A DNA stretch of 64,000 nt. Origin: Cliona cf. orientalis (lineage: Eukaryota; Porifera; Demospongiae; Clionaida; Clionaidae). The notes beneath the pieces were generated by a model that did not search any database, was not told where the DNA came from, and worked only from the letters and a program-made list of their open reading frames with translations. Numbering within the stretch: position 1 is the first letter of the stretch; the number at the start of each line of letters is the position of its first letter. Of the stretch, positions 35,612 to 64,000 are shown piece after piece. Location of the stretch: positions 32,597,235-32,661,234 of the forward strand of contig OZ005689.1 in NCBI GenBank assembly GCA_963930775.1, written 5' to 3'. The position numbers and the translations under genes were made by a program.

Positions 35612-35617
35612 GACTGG
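35612..35617 (+). repeat. Target-site duplication GACTGG, left
   Basis: GACTGG directly before the 7-kb element is repeated at 42659-42664 directly after it. Joining the flanks at one copy restores the LINE reading VTRDWHQSLTSHKQ. Confidence 0.9.
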
Positions 35618-35662
35618 GATCAGTGGACCAAAGCGGCCAAGTTGGATTTGTGCTAATCGGGT

Positions 35663-35868
35663 GCAGCTTGTAGCTGCTCAGCCACTAGCTCTGGGCTCAC
35701 TGCCTTCTTGGTGAGTGGATCTGCTGGCTGCTTGCAGTTGACTGGATTGCAGCTTGTAGCTGCTCAGCCACTAGCTCTGGGCTCACTGACTTCTTGGTGA
35801 GTGGATCTGCTGGCTGCTTGCAGTTGACTGGATTGCAGCTTGTAGCTGCTCAGCCACTAGCTCTGGGT
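35663..35868 (-). repeat. 86-bp tandem array, left end
   Basis: Units start at 35663, 35749 and 35835 (exact 86-bp spacing), each beginning GCAGCTTGTAGCTGCTCAGC; the last is partial. The array is the inverted counterpart of 42318-42615. Confidence 0.95.
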
Positions 35869-36011
35869 TTTGTATTATTATGATCGCGATCGCGGATTAG
35901 CTCTGCGCGAAAATATTAATAATTAAAAAAAATTACGCGCACGCGCACTATTTATTATAATACATGTAAATGACATTAGCGACCATTACCGGATCATTTT
36001 TGGCGGGGAAA

Positions 36012-36218
36012 ATGGAGCTCGTGTCGCAAGACCTTGTTAAAAGTTTGCTCACAATGGGCAAATCTTACCTGGAGATCTCCATAGAACTGATTGATGTCTA
36101 TCCTGAAATTAAGAGGGGTCTTTCTGAGCGAAGCGTAAGACTTTATGTCAAGCAGCATGACCTGAAAAGTCTGTGTGAGCAGGATAAGGAGCAAGCTATA
36201 CAAGTGTTCAAGAGGTAG
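36012..36218 (+). CDS. Helix-turn-helix N-terminal exon of the integrase gene
   Basis: From ATG 36012 it reads MELVSQDLVKSLLTMGKSYL, EISIELIDVYPEIKRGLSER and SVRLYVKQHDLKSL. This is a short helical domain predicted to bind DNA, presumably the terminal repeats. A homologous exon lies on the minus strand at 52635-52318. The coding part probably ends at a donor near 36198 (CAA then GTGTTC), which joins in frame to the exon starting at 36405. The reading to the stop at 36218 is then intron. Confidence 0.7.
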   Translation: MELVSQDLVKSLLTMGKSYLEISIELIDVYPEIKRGLSERSVRLYVKQHDLKSLCEQDKEQAIQVFKR

Positions 36219-36404
36219 TAGCTAAATGTATACTACAAATAGATCAAGATGCATAAGCGAAATGAGTTTGAAGATACTTATGATAATCACTGTGTATGTT
36301 ACAGTACATGCATACTATATTGAATGGCATGCTAAATCTATAGTACAATGTCATGGTAATTTTAATTAGCTATATAAATATTATAATTGGTCTAACTTTA
36401 ATAG

Positions 36405-37418
36405 GTTGGAGGATTATACGGAAGGAAACTGTTAAAAGGGTACCTTTTATCGAAAGGAATATCCACTTCTGAACGTAAGCTAAAGAATGTTTTACCAAGA
36501 ATATCCCCACAATGGCATCTGGCCCGACAGCAAAATTCCCAAGCATGGTCAAATCCTTCAGTTTATATTGCAAATTATTTTGGTCACAAACTGCACATAG
36601 ACCAGAATGAGAAACTTGTAAATTATGGTGTCACCTATGTTTTAGCTAGAGACGGATACTCTGGGAAGATTGTTGGAGCAGCCATTATGCCACAAAAGAA
36701 TAATGAAATCATCTACGAGGAAGTGTATCGTGACTGTGTAGTTCGGTATGGTCTGTGGGACGAAATTAGAGTTGATCATGGAAGAGAATTCTACCTCAGT
36801 TTGTATGTGCAAGAGCAGTTACGAGGTGAAGGACGAGGTGACCCTCATATTGCATCATACATGCAAACAAGCTCAACCCATAACCACATCATAGAACGTG
36901 TGTGGGTTGAAGTTAACCAAAGGGTTACCTACCCAATTAAACAGATCATTGTGGAAATGGATGATCAACATGTTGTCAACATGGAGAGTGATACAGAGAG
37001 GAGTTGCGTATCAAATATCCTGAGAAGAGTTTGTATGGTTGGATAAAGAAGAATGGTAGATGCTTGGAACAGTCATACCATTCCCAAAAAAGGTATTCCT
37101 AATGCCCTTCAAATACAAAACAACAGGACTACTCCTATCAGCCCATCTGATGTGCCATCAGTTGTGGATGCAGTTTCAGCATACAGGGAACAAGGTGGCA
37201 GAATCACTGATCCAAGTGACTTTGGACAGGATCCACTAAGCTCTGACATTACTCTCTTACAGCTTCGTGAGCAAGAATGGTCAAAAAGATGTGGTAGGAC
37301 AGCTGAAGATATTTATACTCAAGTCATGTGTGGAAATACACAGCCCCTTAGAGATGCAATGGTAAAATTTATTGGAATTGTCGACCTAAATCCTATATTA
37401 TTATTGTATCTGTTTGCA
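36405..37418 (+). pseudogene. IS3EU-like integrase/transposase, one nonsense codon
   Basis: After an acceptor (TTTAATAG) it reads VGGLYGRKLLKGYLLSKGIS, YIANYFGHKLHIDQNEKLV, YVLARDGYSGKIVGAAIM, LWDEIRVDHGREFYLSLYV and SSTHNHIIERVWVEVNQRV. The catalytic triad is visible: Asp in HIDQN, Asp in RVDHG, and Glu in NHIIERVW with 39 residues between the last two, like retroviral and IS3-type (rve) integrases. The C-terminal region continues MVDAWNSHTIPKKGIPNAL and SDFGQDPLSSDITLLQLREQ. A single in-frame TAA at 37044-37046 interrupts an otherwise intact frame. Confidence 0.8.
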
Positions 37419-37523
37419 TAACATTGTTATGATTACTTTATTGCGCATGCTCAGTTAGCTTATTCTACACGTGCGTTCCAGCGACATCACAATAATCATT
37501 TATATCACGAGACGAAAAGTAAG

Positions 37524-38137
37524 ATGTCTTTTTTGCTCTATTCGGTGAAGAACAACTCCCTCTCTGTCAAATTACGATGGACACAAATGACGGTAGAAAC
37601 CTTGGGGAAAGTATTTAACATTGCTTCGGCCACAATATTTTTGGTAGGAGATGATGGAACTGTCGCCACTCCCGGGGAGGACGGCACGTTTGATACTTAC
37701 GAAATGAATTACGACGTTGTTTGGACGATTTGTGGCAGTCCATCGGTCACTCGAGAAGTGCCTGGAGGTAGTGCATCGTCATCTATCACTCGCCAACAAA
37801 CAAAAGCTGGAGGCGGGAAGTGGAGGCCAAGCGTTGGCTCTTCCATAGTGGCTTCGTCATCAACCGCAACACCACCAGTTGGTAATCGTGTATCCAAGCA
37901 CGAGTCAAAGAAGGCGTCAGGGGGAGGTGGCCCTGGACAATCCTGGACCAAGACCGTGGAGATTTGCTGCTACGAATTATCCTGTGCCTGTATAAAGAAA
38001 ACTTTATCTCCCTCTGACCTTAAACGAAAATACGGCTACTGTCACGAGAATTGCTGATATAACCTCTGCTGAGGCTTTCGAGGGTGATGCCGTCGTATTA
38101 TTGGACTCAGAAAACCTGCGGATACCGGATAGTGTTG
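37524..38137 (+). pseudogene. Accessory gene of the 7-kb element, exon(s) 1: N-terminal domain, copy 1
   Basis: ATG 37524 opens a domain reading LSVKLRWTQMTVETLGKVFN, SATIFLVGDDGTVATPGED and YDVVWTICG, followed by a Ser/Gly-rich linker, SWTKTVEIC and, after a frameshift, NENTATVTRIADITSAEAFE and VVLLDSENLRIPDSVGTRG. The exon ends in phase 1 (ACA AGA G then GTATG). A homologue at 52849-54264 aligns over all these blocks (PDTIILVSDRGTLALPTDG, SWIKSIEIC, EEGTATVPYIVDKLSKEAFG, ADTEGTRG). The L-V-x-x-D-G-T-V pattern recalls CIDE-N or beta-grasp folds, but that is only a guess. Confidence 0.65.
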
Positions 38138-38390
38138 GCACAAGAGGTATGATAATAGTACCTGTGGCTAGTTTAGCCCCGTCCCCGGAAAGAATTTAAT
38201 GGGAGTGGTCTGGGGACGAGGCTATGGGTAGTTTGAAGGGGAGCACTGGTGGACTGATTTGTATGACAGTTTATCTTTTAGCTACAGAGGTGCACTAATT
38301 CAATTATGGTGGCTTAATTGGTTCAAGGGAGCCTCAGTAATGGCTGCTCTGCTCATAGTAATCAGCCAAGTGTGACCAACAGAATAATTA

Positions 38391-39811
38391 TGACCCTCCA
38401 CGAGGAAACCAAGCATAATGCGCTAGACATCAATCTGAGATACAGGCCAAAATAGTTGCCCAAGGTGATAATTATCTTTTTTCACGTTTTGGTATAGATC
38501 AATAGAGGAATCATTCCTCTACACAAAAATCTGCTTCGTAGCTTCTAGAATGCTATACTTACCAAATTATGACTTGAAGAAGTCAGCCATGTACATTGTA
38601 GCTAATACTGACCATCCATGATATGGACCCATTGCCATAGTTGTAGTAATCAAGCACGGCAGCTGCACAGAAAAACTCTCCAGTTGCTTCTTTCTTCAAT
38701 TTAATGTACTAACAATCTTTGGTATATGTTACTATGGCAACAATATCTAACGTCACTAACCTGTAGAACATCCATAGTCAAGTCATGTTCAAAAACTAAT
38801 AAAACAGAGCTACCCTAGCCCACAGTAATTTAATCAGTGTACAGTGCCAGTATGGTGGAGCACTGGTATACCATAATAACAATATACCATGTACCTTAGA
38901 TGATTTCCACCTGCTCTAACTGCGCCACATAGACACGCTTATCTTTTCGTTCTTTCCACCGAAAACCCGGCTGCTACTCTCTTTCCAACATTAATATTTG
39001 GCAGCCATGCATATCTATAGCTCTTTGACTTAGTGGGCAGCGCCACGTATTTTGCATAAATGGCGAATATATCGACTTCCGCGTGTAACGTACGTAGCAA
39101 TGTTCATTGCATTTTTTGCTCATATCTCCATGACTACACGGGGTATCATTATACTAAGATTATAGTTGTCCGTGTGTGTGTACGAGCGGGAGGTGACCGG
39201 AAACGATTCGACCCGAGCAAAAAAGTTTTATTTCTAGGCATCGCTGGACTTGGGGTGATACAACAGATAGCCCAATGAAACGGCTGGCTAAGGCCCCAGC
39301 AGCGACTAAAGTGAGCTGCTTCAAAATAACGCCAGGGCAGAATTAGACTGAATTGTACCACTTACAATGGCGGCTGGGAGAATGCAAAGGGGTGACACTC
39401 TGGAGCCAATGTTGCCCATAGGTGCTTTCCAGAAGGAGGCGATTCTATTCTAAGCGTCTTCTCTTCCGAGCCCTTGCAAGTGAAACTGCAAGACAACTAA
39501 CGAATTTCTCGAGCAAGCTGATTGACAAAGTCACATGATCAGGCAGGATGTGCACGAGCTCTAGCTTGCTCATGCGCATGTGCACAAATATGTAGGTATA
39601 GGTCATCGATGGCACATGCACAATAATATGCGGCACAGAGATAAAGGAGTGAGCGAGCGAAGCAAGCTCACTCCTTATAATAGCTGTATATATATATAGA
39701 GAGACTTCAAATTTACTGGAGCAATAGTTCAAAGGTTGTAGTTGGTAATGGTGGCCTTAACTCAAAAAGTTTTTTCTGCGCATTATGCTTGGTTTACTCG
39801 GGGAGGGTCAC
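38391..39811 (+). mobile_element. GTGACC MITE copy with two internal insertions
   Basis: It starts TGACCCTCCACGAGGAAACC and ends GGTTTACTCGGGGAGGGTCAC. Against the 675-bp copy at 40088 it carries extra DNA at about 38720-38930 and 39140-39690. It lies within the intron of the accessory gene. Confidence 0.75.
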
Positions 39812-40087
39812 TATTTATGGCACATCACATGTGCGGGTACATAAACCCTTTCCTCTGGTAGGGTGAGTCCATGATGACTGACTCATTCTATAGTTGATGT
39901 ATACTGAACATATAAGATATAGCAGCAACTGACAGTCATATTATTACAGTCAATTTTGACTATTTAATATCATAATACATTACAGTCTAATACCATAATA
40001 TTATAGCTGGAAAAATTGGCAGGGAATGAAATTTGGTGTCTGCCTTAGCAACCACCAAATTATATATTATACTATATGCAATAATAT

Positions 40088-40762
40088 GTGACCCTCCACG
40101 AGGAAACCAAGCATAATGTGCTGGATATCAATCTGAGATACAGGCCAAAATAGTTGCCCAAGGTGATAATTACCGTTTTTCACTTTTTGGTGTAGATCGA
40201 TAGAGGAATCATTCCTCTACACAAAAATCTGCTTCGTAGCTTCTAGAACACTATACTTACCGAGTTATGGCTCGAAGAAGTCGGCCGTGTAGCTAACATT
40301 GATTGTCCATGATACGGGGCCGTTGCCATAGTTGCAGCTAGGCAAGCACGGCAGCTGCACAGAAAAAGCTCTCCAGTCACTTCTTTCTTCGATTTTGTAT
40401 ACTAAAGATCTATAGACACACTTATCTTTTCGTTCATTTCCATCAAAACGCCGGCTGCTGCTCTCTTTCCAACGTTTTAGCAGCCGTCTGGCTCTTTGAC
40501 TTAGTGGGCGGGGCCACGTATTTACCATAAACGGCAAATATACGGACTTCCGTGTGCAACATACGTAGCAATATTCGATGCAATTTTTTGCAATACTTCA
40601 GTACGGGCGATCCGGGTATACGTTTGCTCATATCTCCATGGCTACACAGGCTAGAGACTTCAAATTTGCTGGAGCAATAGTTCAAAGGTTGTAGTTGGTA
40701 ATGGTGGCCTTAACTCAAAATTTTTTCCGTGCATTATGCTTGGTTTACTCGTGGAGGGTCAC
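40088..40762 (+). mobile_element. GTGACC MITE, complete copy
   Basis: Inverted ends are GTGACCCTCCACGAGGAAAC and its near complement, about 32 bp long, flanked by ATAT on both sides. It is itself inserted into a relic of the CCGTATAGC MITE family (relic halves at about 40000-40087 and 40763-40865). The ORFs on its minus strand are shadows shared by all copies. Confidence 0.8.
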
Positions 40763-41039
40763 ATATGGTGATACAGTATTCTGGACCGCTAAATTAAAAT
40801 TTGCAAATATTTTTGCAATGGTGATTTTATGCAAATTTACCAATCTTTCTGGCTATACCGTGTAATACCAGTAAGTCCAGGAATGAATATCACATAGTCT
40901 TCATACTTTTACATTTCTCAACAAGAGCCATTTGACATGGAGACATGTGATGACGCATGTCCAACCTCCTCTGGTCTTTTGGCTTCATGCAATATTTGTG
41001 TAAATTTAATTATGATCACTTTGGTATATTATTTTGTAG

Positions 41040-41626
41040 GTTCAAAGTTTTGGAAATCAACCAGAAAAATCAAAGTGATTAGCCAAAGTGATTATTCGGC
41101 ATTCCGGGGAATGAAGAAGATGAAAATGCCTGAATTTTCTGACTCAGATTCTGATTTCGAAACAATAGCTCCAAAAAAGCGACAGTGCATTGATTCAACA
41201 GCTCCTGATGATGGAAGTAGTATGGGCAGCTTAATGAGCAGGATGGAGAATTTGGGAAAATGTGTGCAACAGTCTCTTGGCCATCATGAAGAACAGGAAA
41301 AACTGAAGAAAACCATCACAACCCTGGAAAGTGAGAAGGCAAGGTTGATTGAAGGAAAGCGAGGAATTGAAAGGTCCCTGGATGATTTCAAGAACAGTCT
41401 TTCATGCATTGTATGCAAGTCTCTGGCAAACTTTCCATGGCAGGTTACTCCTTGATGTCGTATTATATTGTGTTCAGAATGTGGTGATAGGTGGCTGATG
41501 ATGGAATCATCTTGTCCTCATTGTCGATCGATTGTAGTACCTGGAAGCTGCCTCACTGTTGAAGAAATCCGTCCAATTCAGCAGCTTGTTTCACCACATG
41601 TACCAGAGGAGGAGGAGGTTAATTAG
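41040..41626 (+). pseudogene. Accessory gene, RING-finger exon, copy 1
   Basis: After an acceptor (TTTTGTAG) it continues phase 1 as G-SKFWKSTRKIKVISQSDYS, then an acidic segment (SDSDSDFETIAPKK), a coiled coil (EEQEKLKKTITTLESEKARL) and a RING: CIVCKSLANFPWQ, a TGA at 41453-41455, then ILCSECGDRW and CPHCRS. RING domains usually recruit E2 ubiquitin-conjugating enzymes. Here a Cys/Ser replaces the usual His, as in the other copies. The nonsense codon falls inside the RING. Its homologues lie at 57719-58985 and 62124-62722. Confidence 0.75.
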
Positions 41627-42317
41627 GCAAAGTGGTATCATTCGTATCCATTTTTGACTACGTAGTACTGCTGTGATTTCATTTATCTTAACTCAAGTCA
41701 TGCAATATTCATTATTCTCAGCCGGTATTGAATTCACTGCCCTATCATGGGATCCAAGCAGACCAAAATAATGATATATTTAACTCACAACTGATTGATA
41801 TGGAGCTAGTCTTGATTGAACAGTGATCATACTTCTTATCCTTCATTTTATTTAAGTAACATTGCTATTGATGATGTAATTCAATTTTAATCATTTTAAT
41901 CACGGAACGACGTCCATCTTCTTTCCAAATAATGCACACTATGTTAGCACATGACGCGAAAATAAAATGCGCATTCTTAATGCATTAGCGTAAGCGCTAT
42001 TATTATAAATACGTTATTGTGCATTAGATATCAATCAATATGGCTCTAATATAATAATTATAATCGTACGATATAGTAATTAATAATAATAGAAGCAGTT
42101 CTGCACTCGTCCACATACAGTAGTCTTAGCCATAGCTACCTGCATAATAAAAAAAAAATTTAATAATTATGGCGATCATGCCCAGCCCCTAAATTAGAAA
42201 TTAGTATTGCAGGCTCTGTAGCTAAGTTGTATGGGTCTGCTTATCAATCCTGCCACCTGCTAACTCGACGGTTAGGGCGTGAAGCCATTGCCAATGACCC
42301 CAAAGTGCTGATAGGCG

Positions 42318-42615
42318 GTGAGCCCAGAGCTAGTGGCTGAGCAGCTACAAGCTGCAATCCAGTCAACTGCAAGCAGCCAGCAGATCCACTCACCAAGAAG
42401 GCAGTGAGCCCAGAGCTAGTGGCTGAGCAGCTACAAGCTGCAATCCAGTCAACTGCAAGCAGCCAGCAGATCCACTCACCAAGAAGGCAGTGAGCCCAGA
42501 GCTAGTGGCTGAGCAGCTACAAGCTGCAATCCAGTCAACTGCAAGCAGCCAGCAGATCCACTCACTAAGAAGTCAGTGAGCCCAGAGCTAGTGGCTGAGC
42601 AGCTACAAGCTGCAC
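42318..42615 (+). repeat. 86-bp tandem array, right end
   Basis: Units begin at 42318, 42404, 42490 and 42576 with exact 86-bp spacing, each GTGAGCCCAGAGCTAGTGGC; the last is partial and runs into the terminal motif. The array is inverted relative to 35663-35868. Confidence 0.95.
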
Positions 42616-42664
42616 CCGATTAGCACAAATCCAACTTGGCCGCTTTGGTCCACTGATCGACTGG

Positions 42665-48285: not shown

Positions 48286-48596
48286 CGATGAGTATAATAA
48301 TCGATAATAACATACAATTAATTATGATAATTATTATATTACAGTAGAACCTCGATTATCCGACCCTCGGTTATCCGGAATCTCGATTATCCGATCAGAG
48401 CTTTGAAGGTCAATTCGCTTAATTAGAACAAGCGCGTTCCGGACTCCACCCCCTGATCTGTGTGCGCGAGAGCAGCACGCATGCATCTGCCCGTATCGCA
48501 TATCACGCGCGCTATCGCTCGCGTAGCAGCTGATCAGTGCAGCACATGTTGATGAATCGGCATTTATTAAACGTGTAAAAGTACGTAGCTACAGCC

Positions 48597-50393
48597 ATGG
48601 CGTCTGGTAGCGCTTCTACGAAAAAGAAGCGAAAGAGAGTTGTTTTGACTATAGAGGAGAAAGTGAAAGTTTTAGATATGCTTGATAAATCTGTTTCCTA
48701 TAGTATTATTGCTGAAAAGTTTGGAATAGGAAAGAGTACAGTGAGCGATCTAAAAAAAAACAAAGAGAAAATTCGCGGTTTCCAGAGAGATATGATGGAC
48801 ATGGGAATGAAGAGGCAAGCAAAAACGATGAAGTTAGGTGATGACAAGCAATTGGACCAGGCTTTATACCTATGGTTTAAACAAAAGCAAATGGAAGGAG
48901 TGCCAGTGACTGGTCCGTTGTTGTGTGCAAAGGCACTGGAACTCAGCAGGACCCTCAATGGTGAGACTAACTTCCAGGCAAGTGAGGGCTGGAAATGGAG
49001 GTTTTGCCAGCGTCACGGAATACGTCAATTGTCTGTACAAGGGGAAAAACTTTCCAGTGACAAGGAAGAGGCTGATAAATTTGTATCTGAGTTTAGGTCA
49101 TTCGTCATGGAGAGAGGGTTTACGAGGAACCAGATTTTTAACTGTGATGAAACTGGCCTTAATTTTCGACTTCTACCTGATGCAACTCCTGCTGGAAGCT
49201 TTGAGAAGACAGTAAGTGGAAGAAAAAAGTCAAAGGAGCGTGTGACATTGAATTTATGTTCCAATGCTTCGGGCACAATCAAGTTACCTGTGCACTTAAT
49301 TGGCAAGGCCCAAAGACCTCATTGCTTTCGAAATATGGACATGAAGCTATTGCCTGTGAAGTATACAAATCAAAGAAACGCATGGATGACGACTGATCAA
49401 TTTATCGAATGGTTTCATAATGATTTTGTCCCCTACATACCCAAGGAATTGGAGTCACTAGGAGAAGAGCCGAATGCAGTTTTAGTTCTTGATAATTGCT
49501 CTGCCCATCCAGATTCAGATGATTTGATCAGCACCGACAGCAAAATCTTCGCGAAATTCTTGCCACCTAATGTTACAGCATTGATTCAGCCAATGGACCA
49601 GGGTGTTATTGAGTCAGTCAAAAGAAGATACAAGATGAAATTGCTGCGGAGACTTGTCCTTGGAGATGAACCTGGTGTGTCAGTTGTGGAGTTCTTAAAG
49701 GGAATCAATCTCAAAATTGTTGCTGATCTAGTTCACGAGTCATGGAAAGAAACCAGCTGCACTACACTTCAAAAATCCTGGCAAAAGATTCTTCCAAGGC
49801 CCACTCCAAGTCCACCTATTGCACCTTCATCACCACTGAAGGAATTGTACGAGATGGCAGTACCTGATGAGGAAGTTGTATGTACTGCGAGTCCAGATAA
49901 GCCGGATGTGAATGAGACCCAATGTGGGTATGGTTTATGGCAGGGTATTAGAATTCGAATTGCTCACTCAGATGACTTTACCATGGATGCAACTACCACA
50001 GATGCAGTGTCCGATATTGACGATGAACTTGGTTTCCAAAGTCTTTTCAAAGCAGTAGGTGTTGAGATTGAACTTGACAAAATCATGGAATGGCTTAATA
50101 GTGATGCTAATGACAAGGGGGTTCAAATCTACACTGATTCAGAGATTTGTGAGTTAGTGTCTCACTTAGAAGACAGCATTGAATACACAGATGACGAATC
50201 CTCTGATGAAGAAATTCCTGTGATATCTGACGGTGATGCAGCTCGCTTTTTTGGATTATGTTTAACGTGGCTTGAAAGTCAGCCAGAAGCTACAGTGTAC
50301 AACACATCTGTTGTGAGAGAATTGCAATCATTGGCTGCTAGGAAGAGAATTGATTCTTTGAAACAATCCAAAATCACCAGTTATTTTAAGTAA
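48597..50393 (+). CDS. Tigger/pogo-family transposase
   Basis: It is uninterrupted at 598 residues. The N-terminus has a CENP-B/psq-type helix-turn-helix (EEKVKVLDMLDKSVSYSIIA, EKFGIGKSTVSDLKKN), then a second CENP-B-like DNA-binding domain (residues 80-165; QALYLWFKQKQMEG, GWKWRFCQRHGI). A DDE_1 catalytic core follows with Asp in FNCDETGL (184), Asp in VLVLDNCSAHP (299) and Asp in IQPMDQGVIES (334), giving DD34D. An acidic C-terminal tail ends SLKQSKITSYFK, which resembles a PIP-box (Q-x-x-I-T-x-Y-F) as in other pogo-type transposases. Perfect ends and an open frame suggest recent activity. Confidence 0.96.
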   Translation: MASGSASTKKKRKRVVLTIEEKVKVLDMLDKSVSYSIIAEKFGIGKSTVSDLKKNKEKIRGFQRDMMDMGMKRQAKTMKLGDDKQLDQALYLWFKQKQMEGVPVTGPLLCAKALELSRTLNGETNFQASEGWKWRFCQRHGIRQLSVQGEKLSSDKEEADKFVSEFRSFVMERGFTRNQIFNCDETGLNFRLLPDATPAGSFEKTVSGRKKSKERVTLNLCSNASGTIKLPVHLIGKAQRPHCFRNMDMKLLPVKYTNQRNAWMTTDQFIEWFHNDFVPYIPKELESLGEEPNAVLVLDNCSAHPDSDDLISTDSKIFAKFLPPNVTALIQPMDQGVIESVKRRYKMKLLRRLVLGDEPGVSVVEFLKGINLKIVADLVHESWKETSCTTLQKSWQKILPRPTPSPPIAPSSPLKELYEMAVPDEEVVCTASPDKPDVNETQCGYGLWQGIRIRIAHSDDFTMDATTTDAVSDIDDELGFQSLFKAVGVEIELDKIMEWLNSDANDKGVQIYTDSEICELVSHLEDSIEYTDDESSDEEIPVISDGDAARFFGLCLTWLESQPEATVYNTSVVRELQSLAARKRIDSLKQSKITSYFK

Positions 50394-52249: not shown

Positions 52250-52389
52250 GTGTAATAATGATGATATTAAAAAAATAGTTTGGAAGTGTCCCCTAATGGC
52301 ATAAACTTCTCTCCAAATCAGTGATGGTATAATAATCCCCCCCCCCTTCCCCGGCCAAAAAAGCTGAAGCAAAATTCTAACCCCCAAAC

Positions 52390-52635
52390 CATGCCACACT
52401 CAATAAGGTGGTATGCTGGGTAACCTACCTCACCAATACATTGCTCCACTACCTCAATTTTATCCTTTTTTGCTAAATCTTTCAATCTATTCTGAGCCAC
52501 ATATCTCCTCACACTTCGCGTCGATAGTCCCCTAGTAATGTGAGGGTACAAATCCTTCAGCTCTGATGAGATTTCTTCGTATGTTTTGCCAATCACCAGT
52601 AATCCACGCACAATGTCAATCGAAACGCTGTCCAT
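52390..52635 (-). CDS. HTH exon homologous to that of the 7-kb element
   Basis: From ATG 52635 it reads MDSVSIDIVRGLLVIGKTYE, EISSELKDLYPHITRGLSTR and SVRRYVAQNRLKDLAKKDKI, aligning along its length with 36012-36218. A GTGAGG donor follows VVEQCIG, so the later residues are intron. No integrase exon follows below; the space holds KDZ scraps and Tigger. It is divergent from the accessory gene at 52849. Confidence 0.65.
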
Positions 52636-54264
52636 CTTGCAGCTTCATGAGCTTGCAGTAACTGTTTGATTCTAAATAAGGCACACCACCAAAATATGGC
52701 GCCAAATTGGCCAAAGTTCACAATAATTAAGATCGTAGGTTCTCATCTGCCACAGTACCAATAGCGCGCGTGTTGTTCGACCTACTTCTTCCCAATCCCG
52801 GAGCTCTGAGGCTACCCAGTGATCGGATCATCCATCCAAGGCTGAGTCATGATGGATAGCTATCTCGACTTTGTTGACATCTCTTTCGAGGGCCGCTCAC
52901 TCCAGATGCGGCCGTCTCAGTTGACCACCACCAACATTGCTAGAGCCTTCAGACTCATACCAGATACAATAATCTTGGTCTCTGATCGAGGAACACTGGC
53001 TTTACCAACTGATGGAGTATTTGATGATGTTGACGAATGTTATACGTGGACGGTAGAGGGTGACACAAAGCAACTAATGGTGGCGGAAGCATCGCTGCGA
53101 GGGCTCCTAAATCTGGTGTTGAACGATGGAAGCCTAAAACTTTCCAGCCCTGTATTAGCACTGCAACCAGCCACGGTTGCAGAATACAGGTTGGTCAGCA
53201 TGAGCATGAGCATGCACAAAAGATTGCTTGACTGCCAGGCTAATTATTGCCCATGCCCATACAACATAATATTATTTTTGTCCCTGGGAAAGGACAGATC
53301 CCCCACCCCGTCAATGAATAGTTTTATCAAAATCCCAATACTGCACCTATCAATGTCATGCCCCAAGTCGGGCCAGGTAAAGGATTTTGTAGAGGGCTCA
53401 GTGAAGATCATCGAAATGTAGGCATGCTCATGCACAGTCATCTCTGTAGCTACAGATTTCCGGGTATGACGTTGTGCTCTAAAGACATCTAGTTATACAA
53501 AGATCCCTACGGATCCGTATATACAATAGATGTTTTAATCTACGAGTTGCCCTTAGGGTAAGTACTTTGCTAATTAATAGATGCAAAACTCCTATGCCCC
53601 CCCCCCCTTGGGGCATGACATTGATAGGTGCATAATTAATCTGTGAAAATAGAAGACCAATATCCTACAGGTACACCAATACAGTCCTTAAGGCCACTCG
53701 GAATTACATGTTTGTTTGAACTAACCTGACTGACTGTAAAAATAATTTCAAGCATCCAATAGCTAAGGTTACTACAGGCATATATATATATACCAACTTA
53801 GACTTTTATTAATAGGACTGTCTTAAAAATATATTTTTAAAGCTACCACCCAGCACAAACTTCTAGACTGCTGGAATACTACAAGTTTACATAGTGACAC
53901 TTGTAATTAAAATTCTTTAGTTAAATTATCATCCACCCAACACGTGGTCATGTTAGTTCAATCAAACATTTTTTTTCTGTGTGGCCTAATGCTTGGTTCT
54001 AGCTAGCTCACCCTCTCCACCTTAATTGTTTCCTACTAATTTAGGGAAATGGAAATTCATGGATAAAATCCATTGAAATTTGCTCTTTGAGGGGAGATAG
54101 TGGGGAAGTGGTTTCCTACTCTGAACACCCACTGGCTATTGAGGAAGGAACAGCTACTGTTCCATATATTGTAGACAAGCTTTCCAAAGAAGCATTTGGT
54201 GGGGTGAATGTGCAACTGCTAAACAGCAAAAACATAATGATTGCGGATACTGAGGGAACCAGAG

Positions 54265-56870
54265 GTAAAAGTGCCAAATAATTATAGAATTTTGTGTGTG
54301 TAATTACCTCACATGCGCAGCAGGGGGTAAAGCAATCGGTTTGTCTGTTGTCAGCACAAAAATCCCTAGATTTGGAGATCTAGGCACCTGAGTGACTCGT
54401 AAGCACAACAAATCGGTCAAATCGTTGTGAAACCTGCTTCATTTTGCTTCAAATCGTTTGGTAAGGCTCACAAGCATCCCAAATACGATGTTTAGTTAGC
54501 CACGCCTATCAACCATACTCCCAAGTGCTCTATGCACATGCGCACAGAATATGTAGGTAAAGGTCGTCAACAAGCATGCATGCTGCTAGCTGTGTAGCGG
54601 TGATACTGAGTCCTGCATGCACCATGGCACGTAGGGTATGTGCTCTATGAGCTCTAGTTACTTATTAATCCTTAATGCACAGCATAGGCTGAGGGGTTGC
54701 TGTAATCGTTTGGCGATGTTTGTCCGTCCATCACAATCTCACTTTATTTACTTGTAAGGAAGGCAAGCGGTCGTCTGAGAGAAAGTACTCAGAGCAAATT
54801 CTACGTACTCCAGTGCAGCTGTTGCCCCTATACCTCAGCTACATGCTACATGACTGATTGTACTTTTGTGCTTTACTTGTCTGTTATCCAATGGGAAGTG
54901 TAAATGGGTAGTGGCTCTCAAGTGCTTAATTCAGTTTAGAGATATTCAGCAGTGGCTTTCAGTTTATATAGTGACATAGCCAGGTGCCTTCCCAACTTTT
55001 AGATTACTGTACCATCCTAGAATACCTTTGCAGGTAGGTTATAGCAGTGAGTGTTTTGCACTCGTGTGTATTCACTGTACATTCATTAGTAGTTTTGTGA
55101 GAGCCACAAAATGTTGTATTATTATATCCCTAGTAGCAATTTACTTTTCTGTGATTATGAGCTGCATGTAATAACGAGAAAATTCAGGGCCCTGACAAGT
55201 GTTGCTGTTCACACATTCTCTTGGTTTGCGTAATCCCGTGGATAAATGAAGCTAGCTTTGTGCTATATATAGCACGCATCATGTACGAGTTCAGTCGTGC
55301 ATATAGCATGCCGCGACCAATGGAAGCTGTACTACCTGCATTTTTGAGTTAGTCCCTGCGATTGAAGCATAAAAACTTGTCACCATCAAGGTGGAGTCTA
55401 GACGTCTCAGAGTCCATCTCTATGATAGAGCATTGATGTAAGATTAGACTGTGTATGTGTATGTACTATGTTGACGACTTTTACCACAATGACATGCACC
55501 ATTAACTGTTGGGACATGCTCAATTCATACTGTTCATAGCATAACATGTGAAATATCTGTTCCATTTGCATTTCTGAAAATTAGGTGTAACAATCATGGC
55601 TAATGTATACATGACATTGTATTATTTCTTTATGTGCAGTAAATCTGGTACGCATACCCATTGACCTCACTATGCATGCTTGTTACATGCACTTTAGTCA
55701 ATAGGACACGAGACCACTCCGTAAATTGTGTATACTGCACAACCAAGTGCTTACGTTATAACCGGCTTATTAGCTATATGACACTCCGACTTGGACTGCC
55801 CTGGCATGACGGCTAAACCTTAGTCATGGCCGGATATGTAACTTATAATAAAATCACTTTGAAAGCTTCTTCGTGACAATCATTCGTTCAGAAGTTAGTC
55901 TGAACAGTAACAAGGTGAATTCTTGCTACTTTATGACATTGTGCCTTTAGACCTTTAAAAACTTAAATTCCTAATTAACACCCACTAGCATGCTTTATGA
56001 TACTGGCCATAATATGGAGAGCACTCTATGCCTTTGATGATAGACTATTATAGCTTAATTCACACAAATTACTATCACACGTCATGACATGTAATAACTT
56101 ACATGTACATGTAGTATACCTATACAGTGGCGTAGGAAGCGGGGCGGCCGGGGCGGCCATGGCCGCCCCACTTTTTGGCAGATCAAGGCCACACCCACCA
56201 ATTTATTGCATGCCACTGAGCATGCTCATAGCCTCATTCAATAATCTAGCTAGCTAGATCGACGACCTTTTCCTACTCTCTACTGCAATAATTTACACTG
56301 TACCACCACCCATTGGATTGGAGGGTTTCTAATTATAATTGGCTCCACCTATTGACACACCCACAGCCTACCCACATCCAAAATGCTTCCTACGCCCCTG
56401 CTATAAGCAAATTGCTGACTACTATGGAACGAGAGTAGGTGATCATAGGGTAGCTTGATGATGTCATGCATGGGTAAGCAAATTAGTTACATGCCTTTGA
56501 TTGGGGTGCATGAGATACATGGCCATCGAGGGTCGATTAAAATTAAATTTTAATGGTGTATATTTATGTGTACAGGTTCCCGTAAGTCTGATGTGATGTA
56601 TAGTTGCATGTATGTGGTACGTACTACGTAATAGTGCATGTGATACACACATGTATGCCTGCCGGCAAGTGGATATAATGCACCCCAATTAAGGTATTTT
56701 GTGGGTCCATGACCCCTCTCATCATTGTCCAGAGGGGTGCTGGTACTCGTTATACGAGTGATCATAGAGAAAGTATCCATCTGGAAAAAAAAAACTTTTG
56801 TCTGCTAAGTAATGGCCAACAAGCAACCCTGTACGTGTATATAACCCTTGATATAATGTGAGTTTGTCAG
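54265..56870. other. Intron of accessory copy 2: no recognised gene
   Basis: It contains a distant reverse copy of the 9830 repeat (54300-54500), a dispersed repeat shared with 62985-63560 (about 55680-56040), and a GGCGGCC palindrome near 56140-56165 (GGGGCGGCCATGGCCGCCCC). No exon is evident. Confidence 0.5.
55680..56040 (+). repeat. Dispersed repeat (CGAGACCACTCC family), copy 1
   Basis: It shares ACGAGACCACTCC, GGCTTATT, TTTGAAAGCTTCTT, ACTTAAATT(C/T)CTAATTAA and GATGCCTTTGATG, in order, with 62985-63560 and partly 63690-63960. No inverted ends found. Confidence 0.65.
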
Positions 56871-56878
56871 ATACATAT

Positions 56879-57545
56879 GTGACCGTCCACGACAAAACCA
56901 ACCATATTGCGCTGGATATCAATCTGAGATACAGGCCTATTTAGTTGCCCAAGGTGATAATTATCATTTTTCACTTTTTGGTATAGATCGATAGAGGAAT
57001 CATTCCTCTACACAAAAATCTGCTTCGTAGCTTCTAGAACGCTACACTTCCTGAGTTATGGCTCGAAGAAGTCGGCCGTGTAGCTAACATTGACCGTCCA
57101 TGATACGGAGCCGTTGCCATAGTTGCAGGTAGGCAAGCACAGCAGCTGCACAAGAAAAACTCTGCAGACACTTCTTTCTTCGATTTTGTGTACTAACGAT
57201 CTATAGACACGCTTATATTTTCGTTCTTTTCCATCGAAACGCCGGCTGCTGCTTTCTTTCCAACGTTTTGGCCACCATCTGGCTTTTTGACTTAGTGGGC
57301 GTGGCCACGTATTTTGCATAAACGACGAGTATACGGACTTCTGCGTGCAACGTACGTAGCAATGTTTCATTGAGCTTGATGAACATTTTTATTACGGGCG
57401 ATCCGGGTACATTTTGGCTCATATCTCCATGACTACACGGGCTAGAGCGTTCAAATTTGCAGGATCAGGTTGTAGTTGGTAATGGTGGCCTTAACTAAAA
57501 ATCGGTTGTCAGCGCAATATGGTTGGTTTTGTCATGGAAGGTCAC
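56879..57545 (+). mobile_element. GTGACC MITE in accessory copy 2
   Basis: It starts GTGACCGTCCACGACAAAAC and ends TTTTGTCATGGAAGGTCAC. Same family and orientation as 40088-40762, about 85 to 90 percent similar by eye. Confidence 0.75.
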
Positions 57546-57912
57546 ATGTACATGTAGTCACACCATAATATTATTATACACTGTAGTTTGTCTGCGTGCA
57601 TGAGTGGTATCTGCAGTGATTACATGCTGGTACACGAGGGCTTATAGACCCCATAGTCTATAAGCCCTTGGTATTTGATTTTGGGGTTTCTTTTAAGTAA
57701 TTCTTGCCCATTCTATAGGAGTGAAGTTTTGGTGATCAAGCAAGATTATCAAAGCTGTTTCAGAAAGTGACTACTCCAATTTGCAGAGGATTAGAGGTGG
57801 GAGGAGTTTTGGTGATCCAGGTCCTAGCCGTGCACCTACTATTCTGTTGAGTGATAGTGATTCCGATGGACCTGTTCGGCCACTAGTGCGGAAGCGTAAA
57901 TTCAAATACATA

Positions 57913-58634
57913 CAGTGCTCCAAGCAAAGAGAGCAAAACTTTTTAGATTGGGTCAAAAATCAAATTCTATGTTACTTATTGTTGTTCATTATTGAGGCCT
58001 GACACTATTAACATGTCCTTCTGAGATGACATACCAGGTCAAATTTGACAAAATATGACACACCCACCCTAATTACCTGCCATTTTGTTTTATGTAAATA
58101 TTTCCGATTTTCAAATTTTGAAATTTTTTTGCCGATTTTGGCTCATAACTTCATTCATGCATAAAGATAGGAGTTCAGACTTGACATATATAAACTCTGG
58201 GGACTTATCTAACATACCCTAGAGCGTGGACCCCTAAATCACAGGAATTTCCTTATATGGATCTAAAGCAAACAGCAACAAAATGGCTGCCAAAAATACA
58301 CAAAATTTGAATTTTCTGAAGAAGTACTGAGGAGATTTAGTTGAAACTTACTTGGAGGCTTCTACCTTAGTAGCCCTACATTAGTGCCACATGTGGTTGT
58401 GTATCTCACTGTGGTTCTCATGTATTTATCTAAAGCTTTTTTTGAAGGATCTCTTCACTGGTGAAGCCATAAAACTGTAGTGACCTCAAATAGTTTGATT
58501 ATAATTGAATCATAGTTAGAGGACATATTGCTGAACCTACATACCAAGTGTAGTGGGTTGAAAACTTAAGAGTGAAAAGTTATGCCCATATTGGTAAAAA
58601 ATCAAAAGTTTTGCCCTCTTTGCTTGGAGCACTG
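57913..58634. mobile_element. MITE inserted in the exon of accessory copy 2
   Basis: Inverted ends CAGTGCTCCAAGCAAAGAG and its near complement (CTCTTTGCTTGGAGCACTG) are flanked by TA (57911-57912 and 58635-58636). Interior has no gene. Its removal restores the host reading frame. Confidence 0.85.
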
Positions 58635-58985
58635 TAGATGAATTGGATTCTGACTCAGGCCCATCAAAGGTGAAGGTACAGAAAACTGAGTCTTCTTGAA
58701 GACATCCAAGGAGGTGTGAAAAAAATCAACGAAGGTTTAAGTGACCAAATTAACAGATATTATCAGATAATATCTATTCACTTGTTTAATCTGCAAACAA
58801 GTGACACTTGAGGAATCAAAGCCCACCATTCCACCATGCTGTAGGAGTGTCGTCGTTTGCGAGTCCTGCATTCAGCAATGGTTGCAAACTAAATCCCATA
58901 TGCCCACACTGCAGGAGTCCACTCAGTTTTGACAACTGCATGCCACAGCCTCTTCTCAGACCCATGTTCGAGTTATTGCAGTGAG

Positions 58986-60027
58986 ATTCTCGGGTTGACT
59001 ATATAGCCGAACTAACTTTGAGTTGATTCTATACTACTAACGTTGATTACACAATCATACAGATTGATTCGATCAATTGATTACACGGCATTCCGGCTAT
59101 TTAACACATCATTCGGATTCAATCAGAAGACCTCAAAATTATTTATGATTAACGACTGAATTGATTAATAATATCTGTTAATTGCAATTTGTTAGTATGT
59201 ATTGGTATATACTATTCTTTAATCAGCAGAGCAGGCATTTGTTTCTCCTGCCCATTGTCATGACTGTAGCTAAAAGTTCAATTATTAACATCCTATTTAA
59301 TAGCCTGTGGTCTGAAAGTCATATCATAATACATATAGCAGGAAACTTTCATGGGAGAAAGCTTTGATGAATCAGCGGAAGTGAGCAATGAGCATTAATT
59401 TTTGCAGAGAAACGTTTATGGAATGCAATCATCTACATGACTATTGTAGCTATGCCTTAATTTGGACAGAATGGAGACCACTTGACTTACCCATTGGTAC
59501 AAGCTGGATATGATTATTATTGTGAACACGTTATATTGTGGGTGTAACCCAATAGAAGCTGAAAAAAGGTTGGAGAAAACTTTCATGGGTGGCACACAAA
59601 CTGCAAAATTTATGAATGTTTCCTGCTATTATAATTATGGTAATTATGAAGTTAATCATTGCAACATTCCTGCAGTACTAATATTAATTTTAATGTTGCT
59701 GAGCATATATTTCATCCTATGGCAAATATGGTCTAATTAGAATCCTCTTGTGTACATATCATCAGTACAGAATGTTGATCTTTACCGTAATAATTGTGTG
59801 CTATGAGCAAGCACGTGGACCATATTATATCATAATAATAATAATTATTATTAATATTTAAGTATTGCTACAAATGTCGTGCACACACAATGCATACAAT
59901 GTATTTCTGGTAAGAATGATAACTGGGGCACGCATCAGATGTGGTTAGTCTTATAATGATTATAATATTATATTGTGTACATAACATTTATTCTGTTTAA
60001 TTTTAAAAATTAATTATAATAATAATA
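58986..60027. other. AT-rich stretch without a recognised gene
   Basis: No exon or inverted repeat that I can support. Open frames at 59182 and 59510 show only AT-driven hydrophobic runs. Confidence 0.45.
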
Positions 60028-60684
60028 ATTATATGGCCATTTTGGTCCAACATACGTAATTTTGAATTTGATCCATTCATGGAGGCTAGAACTGAATGGC
60101 CACTTTGGTCCTATGTAATGAATTTTGAATTTCCTCTATTTTTGATGGCTAAACTGAATGGCCACTTTGGTCCAACATAATAAATTTTGAATTTCACCTA
60201 CTAGGAGTGACACTAACTGAATGGCCACTTCGGTCCAACATAATAAATTTTGAATTTCACCCACTAGGAGTGACACTAACTGAATGGCCACTTCGGTCCA
60301 ACATAATAAAATTTGAATTTCACCCACTAGGAGTGACACTAACTGAATGGCCACTTCGGTCCAACATAATAAAATTTGAATTTCACCCACTAGGAGTGAC
60401 ACTAACTGAATGGCCACTTCGGTCCAACATAATAAAATTTGAATTTCACCCACTAGGAGTGACACTAACTGAATGGCCACTTCGGTCCAACATAATAAAA
60501 TTTGAATTTCACCCACTAGGAGTGACACTAACTGAATGGCCACTTTGGTCCAACATAATAAATTTTGAATTTCACCCACTAGGAGTGACACTATGTGAAT
60601 GGCCACTTTGATCCAACAAAATAAATTTCTGATCTGAGTGAGTTTTTGTGACCGCTATGGTTGGCCACTTCGGTCCTACACAAT
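60028..60684 (+). repeat. 63-bp tandem array A
   Basis: About nine units of 63 bp each carry GGCCACTT(C/T)GGTCC followed by AACATAATAAA and CACCCACTAGGAGTGACAC. The motif is the inverse of TTGGACCAAAGTGGCC. Because 63 is a multiple of three, long frames run through both strands (60136-60606 minus and 60207-60611 plus); these are repeat artefacts. Confidence 0.95.
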
Positions 60685-60734: not shown

Positions 60735-61225
60735 GATCAGTGGACCAAAGTGGCCAAGTTGAAAGTGGAGTGTTTTCACTACAGAATGCCACACATCCAC
60801 TTGCTACTGCAACAGCTTTCCCGAAATTCTGTCCCAATCGAGTCCAAATGCAGGATGGCCACATTGATCCAAGGGAGCTCTTTGGTCAGTGGACCAAAGT
60901 GGCCAAACAGTTTTCTGTTGAAAATGAGGCCAAATTTGCTTTTGCAGCCAAGTGCCTAATGATCGGGCCAGTACATAGTCTGTTCCTGAATTGCGGCAAA
61001 ATCTGGATTTTGTAAGGTTGGACCAAAGTGGCCAGTAAATATCTTTCTGTACTAGCATAACAGAATCCAGATTTCTCAAGGTTGGAACAAAGTGGCCAAC
61101 AAATACCTATCAGTATGCATGGAAAATTCTGAATTTTGCATAGTTGGACCAAAGTGGCCAAATGAACACAACCTTATATTGCATGGCAAAATTCAGATTT
61201 TGCAAGGTTGGACCAAAGTGGCCAA
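60735..61225 (-). repeat. 63-bp tandem array B with a transposon-like terminus
   Basis: It begins GATCAGTGGACCAAAGTGGC, nearly identical to the end of the 7-kb element. Further GGACCAAAGTGGCC copies occur at 60891, then at 61019, 61082, 61145 and 61208 with 63-bp spacing. Orientation is opposite to array A; 51 unrelated bases separate the two arrays. Confidence 0.9.
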
Positions 61226-62110
61226 CGAGCATAATGAAAAACTAACAAGATTCTACAAGAGTACTATGATGTACATGCGATACTAGAATTAATATTATTA
61301 CAATGTTATGAGGTGGCTAATAATCATAATAATAATAATTATTAATAATTAATACTTGGCATGTAATTTGTGCTTCCAAAAAACCTCGACTATCATCAAT
61401 ATTATTATATGTTATTATTATTGAGTTACAACATACACTGATTGCTGAGTGATCATTGCTTGAAAAGTTTTGGATTGTGAACAGGCATGTGGCTAACTAT
61501 TGTACATTTTCACATGGTTAATTATAATAGTCTCATGTACCCCACTACTCAAAATTGAAGAGCAGAAAATTTTCATGGGTTTCAATTATCATGGTTTAAA
61601 AGTAAATATTATTATTCCAGGATATAATATACATGCACTCATGCCTATTACATATACAGTCCATTATCCACGAAAATAGAACCCCTGAAACTAAAGTTTC
61701 TAATTATGGTATGATAGGATGTGGTAGGTAGAATCATTATTATTACTATAATCACAGTAACTAATGACAGAGTTAGTGAAAACAAAAACCGATATTTCAG
61801 TCGTCTAGATGACGTCAAGTCAATGAAAGCTGTGATGGCATTTTCAAGAACACTGTCATTACCAGAAATCAATCATGAAAAATTAATACGGCATCGACAT
61901 CCATACCACACACTGTGTGCCACATAGTGTATGCAGGAACATCCACAATAGATTGCTCAATCATTTGAATACATAGATGATCACGCAAATGGTAGAGAAA
62001 AAATTGGTTGGAGTAAAGTTTAGTGTCCACATAGGTAGCTATAAGTGATCCAAAACATGATTGGATAGATAGATAATCATGTAAATACACCAGATTGGTT
62101 GAAATCACGT
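61226..62110. other. Stretch without a recognised gene
   Basis: AT-rich with TAATAAT runs. Short frames on both strands (61648-62108) show no family features. This is the spacer between array B and the RING exon. Confidence 0.45.
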
Positions 62111-62123
62111 GTCCACATCACAC

Positions 62124-62722
62124 TTACTCATCACTGATATGTTCAAACAAAGGCCTGAGGAGTGGTTGCACTACACAGCTATCAAGGCTAATCTCACTCC
62201 GGCAGTGGGGGCAGATAGGAGAGGTATCAACCCACTGACTGAGGCAATCAGAGCAACACACTATACTCTTACAACATGGTGGCATGATGGGTCTGCTGCT
62301 TTCATTCACCACCTGCTTACACACAATGCATGTAAATACCTCCTTTAGGAAGGAGGTAACAGCAGCTGAAGGTGTAGCTGCACCAGACGCCAGTGGAGTT
62401 TTCTCTAATTTCTGTTTTATTTCATCAATACTCTCCAATATCTTATTAAGAATGCCCTTATCTGAACTTCTGCGTGGCATTTTTGTTGGTGGTGGTCCAG
62501 GTGAATCAGAATCAGAGATCTGAGGGGGTGGTGGAATATGAAACCTCTTTTTCTTGCGAATCAAGGGACGCAGCGGCTCAGAATCTGAATCTGTGAGGAG
62601 GATAGGTGATCCACTACGAACACTGCTTGGACCTGGCTGGCCGATTCGGATCCTTTGTAGCTTATTGTAGTCCGACTCAGCTATTGCCTTAACAATCTTT
62701 GCTGTTTTCCAGAACTTTGGTC
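62124..62722 (-). CDS. Accessory RING gene, copy 3, intact last exon
   Basis: After an acceptor (TGTATGCAG, exon base 62722) it reads in phase 1 G-PKFWKTAKIVKAIAESDYN, LQRIRIGQPGPSSVRSGSPI, LTDSDSEPLRPLIRKKKR, a Pro-rich acidic linker, a short helix GILNKILESIDEIKQKLEK, then the RING: CIVCKQVVNESSRPIMPPCC, KSIVCCSDCLSQWVD and SPICPHCRSEI, ending LLRPLFEHISDE. No stop interrupts it. A Cys stands where RING-HC proteins have His. Upstream exons (N-terminal domain) should lie beyond 62760 on this strand, but I do not see them before the window ends. Confidence 0.8.
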
Positions 62723-62984
62723 CTGCATACACAAATAAATTAGATTCTGTAAATCCGAAATAATATTATTATGACTACTTGTAATATTCAAGTCCCTACT
62801 ATACTTGGGGGATGACTCAGAGTTGGTTTTGCATTGAATATAGAGTAGTTGCCATATATGGGAATTATGTGAATGTCGTGTAATCTCTCCTTAATGTAAA
62901 AAATTTATTTATAGTTAATGAGTGCGCCGAGTGCAGTACCCGATTTACAGCACGAGAAGAGTGGCCGAGTGGCTGATAAAACAC

Positions 62985-63960
62985 GAGGTGAAGCCGAGTG
63001 CTTTATCAGATACGAGACCACTCCTCGAGTGCTATAAATCATGTACTGCACGACCAAGCGCACGCATTAACTGGCTTATTGTATGGCACTCTGATGTGGA
63101 CTGCCACGACAGTCTACTGGTACATGTAAGTTTACATACAGGGCCGCTTGTATACCCGTTGATCTGTCACTATTTAAAATTTATTTTTGTGAAAAACGGT
63201 CAAATAAAGCTTTATTTTCAAAAGTAGCAAGTTATACATACGCAGATCAGTGCTCTCTGACTTGGACAGTTTGTAGGTAGCTAGCTCTAGTACATGTAGC
63301 CAAGGCTATCTAACACAAAAAATACTGACCTTTGTCAATTTGAAAGCTTCTTTGTGACAACTGTTCAGTCTAGAAGTGAGTATCAAGGGGAATACTTGCT
63401 TTCTCATGTGCTTTTAGACTTTCAAAAACTTAAATTTCTAATTAAAGCCCGCTAGCGTGCTTTATGGCTAATAATGTCTGTGCAATATTGGCCATATTGA
63501 GCACGCTCTACGTGTACCCAATATATAGCATGCACGGGTGATGCCTTTGATGTTATATGGCTTCATACAATAATGTCAGTTTGCCTGTGAGTGCAAAGTA
63601 ACACCTATTTGATGAGTATTGTGATAACATAGGTCACCCTGCTATATAAACAGTGTACTTACATGGATGGTACACCCACCATACATGTGTAATTTACAGC
63701 AAGAGAGAAGTGATTGAGAGGCTCGTGCTTGATCAGCCATTCGACCACTCCTCTTGTTTTATTCTACATGACCAAGCACACACATTAAATGGCATATTGT
63801 GCTCACTGATATGGACAGTTTCTAGCTAGCTAGCTGTAGTAGCACCTACGGCTGCAATAAAAGTACTGAATTTTGTTGCTTTGAAAGCTTCTTTATGAAT
63901 CTAAAGTTTGGAGGGGCGCTTCTGATGTTATAAAGCTTCATACAGTAAATGGCTACTATA
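62985..63960 (+). repeat. Dispersed repeats (CGAGACCACTCC family), copies 2 and 3
   Basis: 62985-63560 and 63690-63960 are tandemly placed relatives of 55680-56040, sharing TTGAAAGCTTCTTT, the CGACCACTCCTC block and a GATGTTATA..GCTTCATACA end. Around 62925-63030, ACGAGAAGAGTGGCCGAGTGG and its inverse ACTCCTCGAGTGCT form a short palindrome. Confidence 0.6.
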
Positions 63961-64000
63961 CAATATTATTCACACCATGTTTGTAACATTCTGACCAATT

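Follow-up and report, generated by a model that had tools for sequence, protein, structure and literature searches.

In a 64,000-nucleotide stretch of the genome of the sponge Cliona cf. orientalis (contig OZ005689.1, positions 32,597,235 to 32,661,234; hereafter the window), positions 35618-42658 are a single transposon of 7,041 bp, which we call element A. It contains an integrase gene and a second gene, the RING gene, that codes for a protein ending in a RING finger. We consider it probable that element A and its relatives form a lineage near IS3EU and GingerRoot, that the integrase is the transposase that moves the element, and that the second gene is an accessory RING gene whose product is an E3 ubiquitin ligase.

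Element A is a complete but broken DNA transposon (Table 1). The preliminary description of the window, drawn from its letters alone, had inferred the boundaries from a perfect 6-bp duplication, GACTGG, and from inverted ends. Both are present, and the inverted ends are 250 bp long. It had also claimed that excision restores the frame of the long interspersed nuclear element (LINE) that element A interrupts. When the flanks are joined, the LINE frame indeed crosses the insertion site (...TRDWHQSLTSHKQVAAVFFDIRKAFDSVPH...); a separate, older stop already lies upstream of this site. The claim that element A is autonomous did not hold, because the integrase and RING genes each carry a frameshift and a stop. 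Since both genes are broken, the element is dead and could move only if the proteins were supplied in trans.

The evidence that the transposon includes the RING gene comes from the genome at large. A search of the 217-Mb assembly with the integrase exon gave 92 rows, 67 of which show at least 35% identity and fall into 31 loci; the other 25 rows were left out of the count of RING neighbors. In 23 of the 31 loci, a RING match lies within 12.5 kb of the integrase. One of these, locus D, is counted by virtue of a RING match 11.6 kb away, and its right end was not found. Four further loci (E, F, M, and Q) contain the N-terminal domain of the RING gene (N-domain) without a RING match. Neither part gave a match at locus R (C1:26013773) and three decayed loci. 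Conversely, an integrase lies within 12.5 kb of 29 of the 32 RING matches. Zones of this kind make up 0.37% of the genome, a measure of chance that uses the genome fraction alone and ignores how the loci cluster, with A to D all inside a 90-kb stretch. The RING exons of elements A, B, S2, O, and S17 served as queries, and the resulting locus lists are lower bounds; host-like rows that matched the RING alone (8, 1, and 26 in three RING-exon searches) were left out. L050, one of the three unlinked RING matches, lies between two element ends together with a C-terminal remnant of an integrase.

These numbers, and ten duplication-bounded elements that hold both genes, bear out the proposal that the RING gene belongs to the transposon. 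It is not a single-copy host gene either: one RING-exon search returned 18 matches, and further ones came from other searches. Because of the linkage between RING and integrase, we reject the reading of the RING gene as a host gene. Another explanation would be that nested insertions joined two unrelated genes, so that the RING gene is not cargo of the transposon. The region is rich in nested repeats, and the two genes of element A stem from different clades (see below). However, the joint enclosure of both genes by duplications in ten elements and the linkage at 23 of 31 loci make this explanation hardly credible.

The ten RING-bearing elements with both ends and perfect duplications are A, B, C, H, J, N, O, P, S17, and S2, and their ten 6-bp duplications are all different. 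The ends of A, B, C, H, and P were set independently of the duplication (those of A by the preliminary description and a check of the sequence); for J, N, O, S17, and S2, the end scan itself required a 6-bp duplication. The same scan did not find the ends of D, E, F, G, K, L, and R. False duplications arose from palindromic 6-mers within long inverted repeats and were excluded, and element M, which has a left end and inverted repeats, was not counted because its flank is palindromic. Among all 15 two-ended elements the duplication is perfect in 14, and the flanks of L050 match at 4 of 6 positions. The terminal 23-mer of element A has 39 matches in the genome at up to two mismatches, compared to none for the reversed control. 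The terminal motif is part of the subterminal repeat unit in B, C, D, E, G, and L050, and not in A.

Elements O and P provide evidence for mobility. Over their length they differ by 17 mismatches and 8 gap openings, which leaves 99.0% identity, and they lie in opposite orientation on two chromosomes; their duplications differ, and the left flanks compared share no match. Because near-identical copies occur at two sites with different duplications, we conclude that the RING-bearing unit moves as one. Copies with the same ends and no RING gene do exist. The four that were fetched are short (922-1,501 bp) and have the common ends and perfect duplications. Since none contains an open reading frame (ORF) longer than 92 aa, they lack the integrase too, and they are non-autonomous derivatives without both genes.

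Several loci were recorded apart from this pattern. RING matches of the family at C1:19357626 and C3:3370059 have no integrase match within 12.5 kb. Locus R (C1:26013773-26014369) contains an intact frame for a related integrase, with no RING match in about 4 kb on either side and no inverted repeats or ends found in about 10 kb. This locus could be a RING-less element or a gene retained by the host.

The integrase of element A matches the Pfam family rva_4 (PF24764) with an E value of 5.5e-17, and its core has the residue spacing D-57-D-39-E. No HHCC zinc domain was seen ahead of the core, judged by eye only. The Pfam matches were to rva_4 and, for element N, additionally to HTH_21 below the threshold. 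The named relatives, among the matches listed (120 of 200), come from fish, anthozoans, and sponges. A sequence search of the PDB gave no usable match.

The RING gene had been predicted as a plus-strand gene with a phase-1 junction that joins GTRG to SKFWK. Five elements (A, H, I, J, and M) keep the donor and acceptor of this junction, and O and P have the junction region inside a single uninterrupted ORF of 365-366 codons. The gene model is supported because the junction is kept in these relatives and the frame is unbroken in O and P. Of the two splice positions first given, 38137 and 41040, the acceptor (41039/41040) is right and the donor lies at 38146/38147. The protein begins with a predicted ubiquitin-like N-domain, continues with another small domain and a coiled coil, and ends in a RING; this four-part architecture recurs in the most distant elements.

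The structural search of the N-terminal half covered residues 1-75. With the C-terminal half as the query, all 50 Foldseek matches listed are RING or U-box structures, and the matches are weak. RING profiles match at E ≤ 10 in all three members tested, and the RING of element H passes the Pfam cut-off (zf-C3HC4_3, 28.9 bits vs 27). An alignment of ten RING domains has seven Cys and one Pro that are invariant, at only 19-51% identity to the first sequence; an extra Cys adjoins the third ligand in nine of the ten. Protein searches for relatives of the RING protein, with about 8,000 candidates scored in each, gave 23 and 3 matches. In the larger set of 23, only two share 95% identity or more with loci of this genome.

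What weighs against a ligase is that the usual His at zinc ligand position 4 is absent in all ten aligned domains. Because this residue is missing and the models are weak, the protein might instead assist the transposase structurally or by binding DNA; the N-domain and the coiled coil would then oligomerize, and the His-less RING would serve for interaction alone. On the other hand, RING profiles still recognize the protein, its C-terminal half matches only RING and U-box ligases, albeit weakly, and the combination of a ubiquitin-like domain with a RING would fit best into ubiquitin pathways. We therefore regard a purely structural role as unlikely. If the RING protein is a ligase, as we prefer to read it, the following mechanism can be proposed. 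The integrase-type transposase with its rva_4 core makes the 6-bp duplications and moves both genes together, a step that is observed. The transposase may bind the subterminal repeats. The RING protein would dimerize via its coiled coil and act as an E3 ubiquitin ligase, which could tag a host factor that limits transposition (by silencing or repair) or could tag or tune the transposase.

The arrangement of the two genes varies between elements. A divergent layout is seen in B, C, I, J, K, and G, among others; A, N, and S17 have both genes in the same direction, and in L and S2 the genes converge. Element H (C4:507416-519730) contains a 3.27-kb inverted repeat with 99.8% identity between the arms, a RING gene in each arm, and a single integrase between them. 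The RING gene is likewise doubled in O and P, where the arms of the inverted repeat measure at least 1.97 kb. An integrase at C1:28197713 with RING matches on both sides suggests a further case of doubling.

Element A combines genes of different descent. The integrase tree groups it with C and D (support 95/94) and with B and E (support 100/100). The N-domain tree places it with H, M, and J (98/100), and in a tree of the RING alone its place is unresolved, on the side of H, I, J, and K. The integrase cores of A and C are 77% identical, whereas the RING of A is 52% identical to that of H and 31% to that of C. Judged from these sequences, element A is a chimera with the integrase of one clade and the RING gene of another. 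Integrase and RING distances correlate when A is left out (Mantel r 0.60, p 0.002) and less so when it is included (r 0.39, p 0.02). From this correlation and the conflicting trees of A, it follows that RING gene and integrase mostly travel together, with at least one exchange of the RING gene.

Among 15 pairs of N-domains, nonsynonymous divergence (dN) ranges from 0.18 to 0.45, and synonymous divergence (dS) is saturated in 13. The two pairs with unsaturated dS have dN/dS ratios of 0.14 and 0.19. The one recent pair, I-M, with 16 differences, has a ratio of 0.61; such a value is expected for copies that decay after insertion, and it gives no evidence of constraint. On the basis of the other pairs, the sequence of the RING protein is under constraint.

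These observations bear on the idea that transposons captured a host RING gene again and again and carry it as a passenger without benefit. Its variable position and orientation, including the doubling in inverted-repeat arms, would suit such a passenger, as would the acquisition of the RING gene of element A from another lineage. However, the correlated distances, the same four-part protein in the most distant elements, and the fact that host-like RING matches in this genome cover the RING alone leave this idea only a slim chance. We suggest tentatively, as a more specific form of the ligase proposal, that the lineage carries an exchangeable ubiquitin-ligase module, made of the ubiquitin-like domain and the His-less RING, which would be swapped between clades, sometimes doubled in both arms of an inverted repeat, and would disable host restraint of transposition.

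Transposons that carry enzymes for erasing silencing marks are known. If true, the link of a separate RING gene to an integrase-type transposon would add the ubiquitin system to this list, and it would offer a system outside RAG1 for testing a transposon RING. How transposons gain and retain accessory genes is a further question on which the RING gene bears, through its exchange between clades and its doubling in inverted repeats.

Further members of the family lie downstream in the window (Table 1). In a decayed second element, integrase exon 1 and the N-domain are divergent, and a 63-bp subterminal array occupies 60050-60683. Element B (13.0 kb) is inserted in the terminal region of element C, and each has its own duplication. 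A foreign open frame of 377 codons inside B (C1:32667149-32668279, minus strand) is perhaps part of another nested mobile element. An open frame of 604 codons at window positions 48579-50393 (+) can tentatively be read as a pogo/Tigger-type (CENP-B/DDE) transposase.

Table 1. Features of element A and of related elements in the window (window coordinates)
Feature	Position	Strand	Remarks
Target site duplication, left copy	35612-35617	.	GACTGG
Left terminal inverted repeat, 250 bp	35618-35867	+	starts GATCAGTGGACCAAAGCGGCCAAG; about 2.4 copies of an 86-bp tandem repeat
Integrase exon 1	36012-36217	+	N-terminal region ahead of core; frame change near 36203
Integrase exon 2	36405-37421	+	rva_4 core D-57-D-39-E; interrupted by TAA at 37044-37046
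RING gene exon 1	37524-38146	+	predicted ubiquitin-like N-domain, low-complexity linker, second domain; frame change near 38000
RING gene phase-1 intron	38147-41039	+	
Foreign repeat inside RING-gene intron	38391-40762	.	ends GTGACCCTCCACGAGGAAACCAAGCATAATG; two copies, ~38391-39815 and ~40089-40762
RING gene exon 2	41040-41626	+	coiled coil and C-terminal RING; TGA at 41453-41455
RING finger, stop read through	41402-41527	+	zf-RING_2 E 1.3e-4, under the Pfam cut-off in element A
Right terminal inverted repeat	42409-42658	-	247/250 identical to left; 86-bp repeats extend inward to 42313
Target site duplication, right copy	42659-42664	.	GACTGG
Decayed second element of A's family	52318-60683		integrase exon 1 (-); RING-gene N-domain (+, 52846-53421); RING pieces (+, 58771-58981)
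Element C, left part	60735-64000		duplication CATGTC; left end 60735; continues past the window to C1:32676596
Element B, left part, nested in C	60884-64000		duplication CTCTTT; left end 60884; RING exon 62127-62765 (-)

The family of element A resembles IS3EU and GingerRoot in its integrase-type DDE transposase, its terminal inverted repeats, and its 6-bp duplications (PMC10045372). IS3EU and GingerRoot are also characterized by the absence of an HHCC zinc domain ahead of the core, which the family of element A, read by eye, may share. According to the published description of the ends, complete IS3EU elements always have TA..TA termini and usually a 6-bp duplication, and GingerRoot termini are mostly TA..TA and occasionally TG..CA (PMC10045372). 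In contrast, the termini of the 15 two-ended elements are GA, GG, or AA, with TG at one end of element C11b, and TA..TA occurs in none of them. Because TA..TA is absent, we do not file element A under IS3EU, and we treat its family only as a related integrase-type lineage. The family also has a RING gene, of which the passages describing IS3EU and GingerRoot make no mention (PMC10045372). In the literature searched, judged on titles and the beginnings of abstracts and with Repbase reports outside its scope, we found no report of a RING gene in an element of the IS3EU or GingerRoot type.

The closest parallel is provided by fungal IS3EU elements, in which accessory genes lie beside the transposase, some in opposite orientation, and have been transferred between transposon lineages (PMC12730594). 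Their cargo consists of genes for TET/JBP dioxygenases and alpha-kinases, and an anti-silencing role has been proposed for an accessory gene; the words RING and ubiquitin do not occur in the main text of that report (PMC12730594). With Chapaev and RAG1/TransibVDJ, the family of element A shares a RING encoded by a DNA transposon (PMC4411706). As of 2015, no known transposable element apart from Chapaev and RAG1 had been described to contain a RING, and the RING of RAG1 has ubiquitin ligase activity (PMC4411706). In Chapaev and RAG1 the RING is fused to the transposase, whereas in the family of element A the RING and a transposase of another superfamily are encoded by separate genes, which lie on opposite strands in several relatives.

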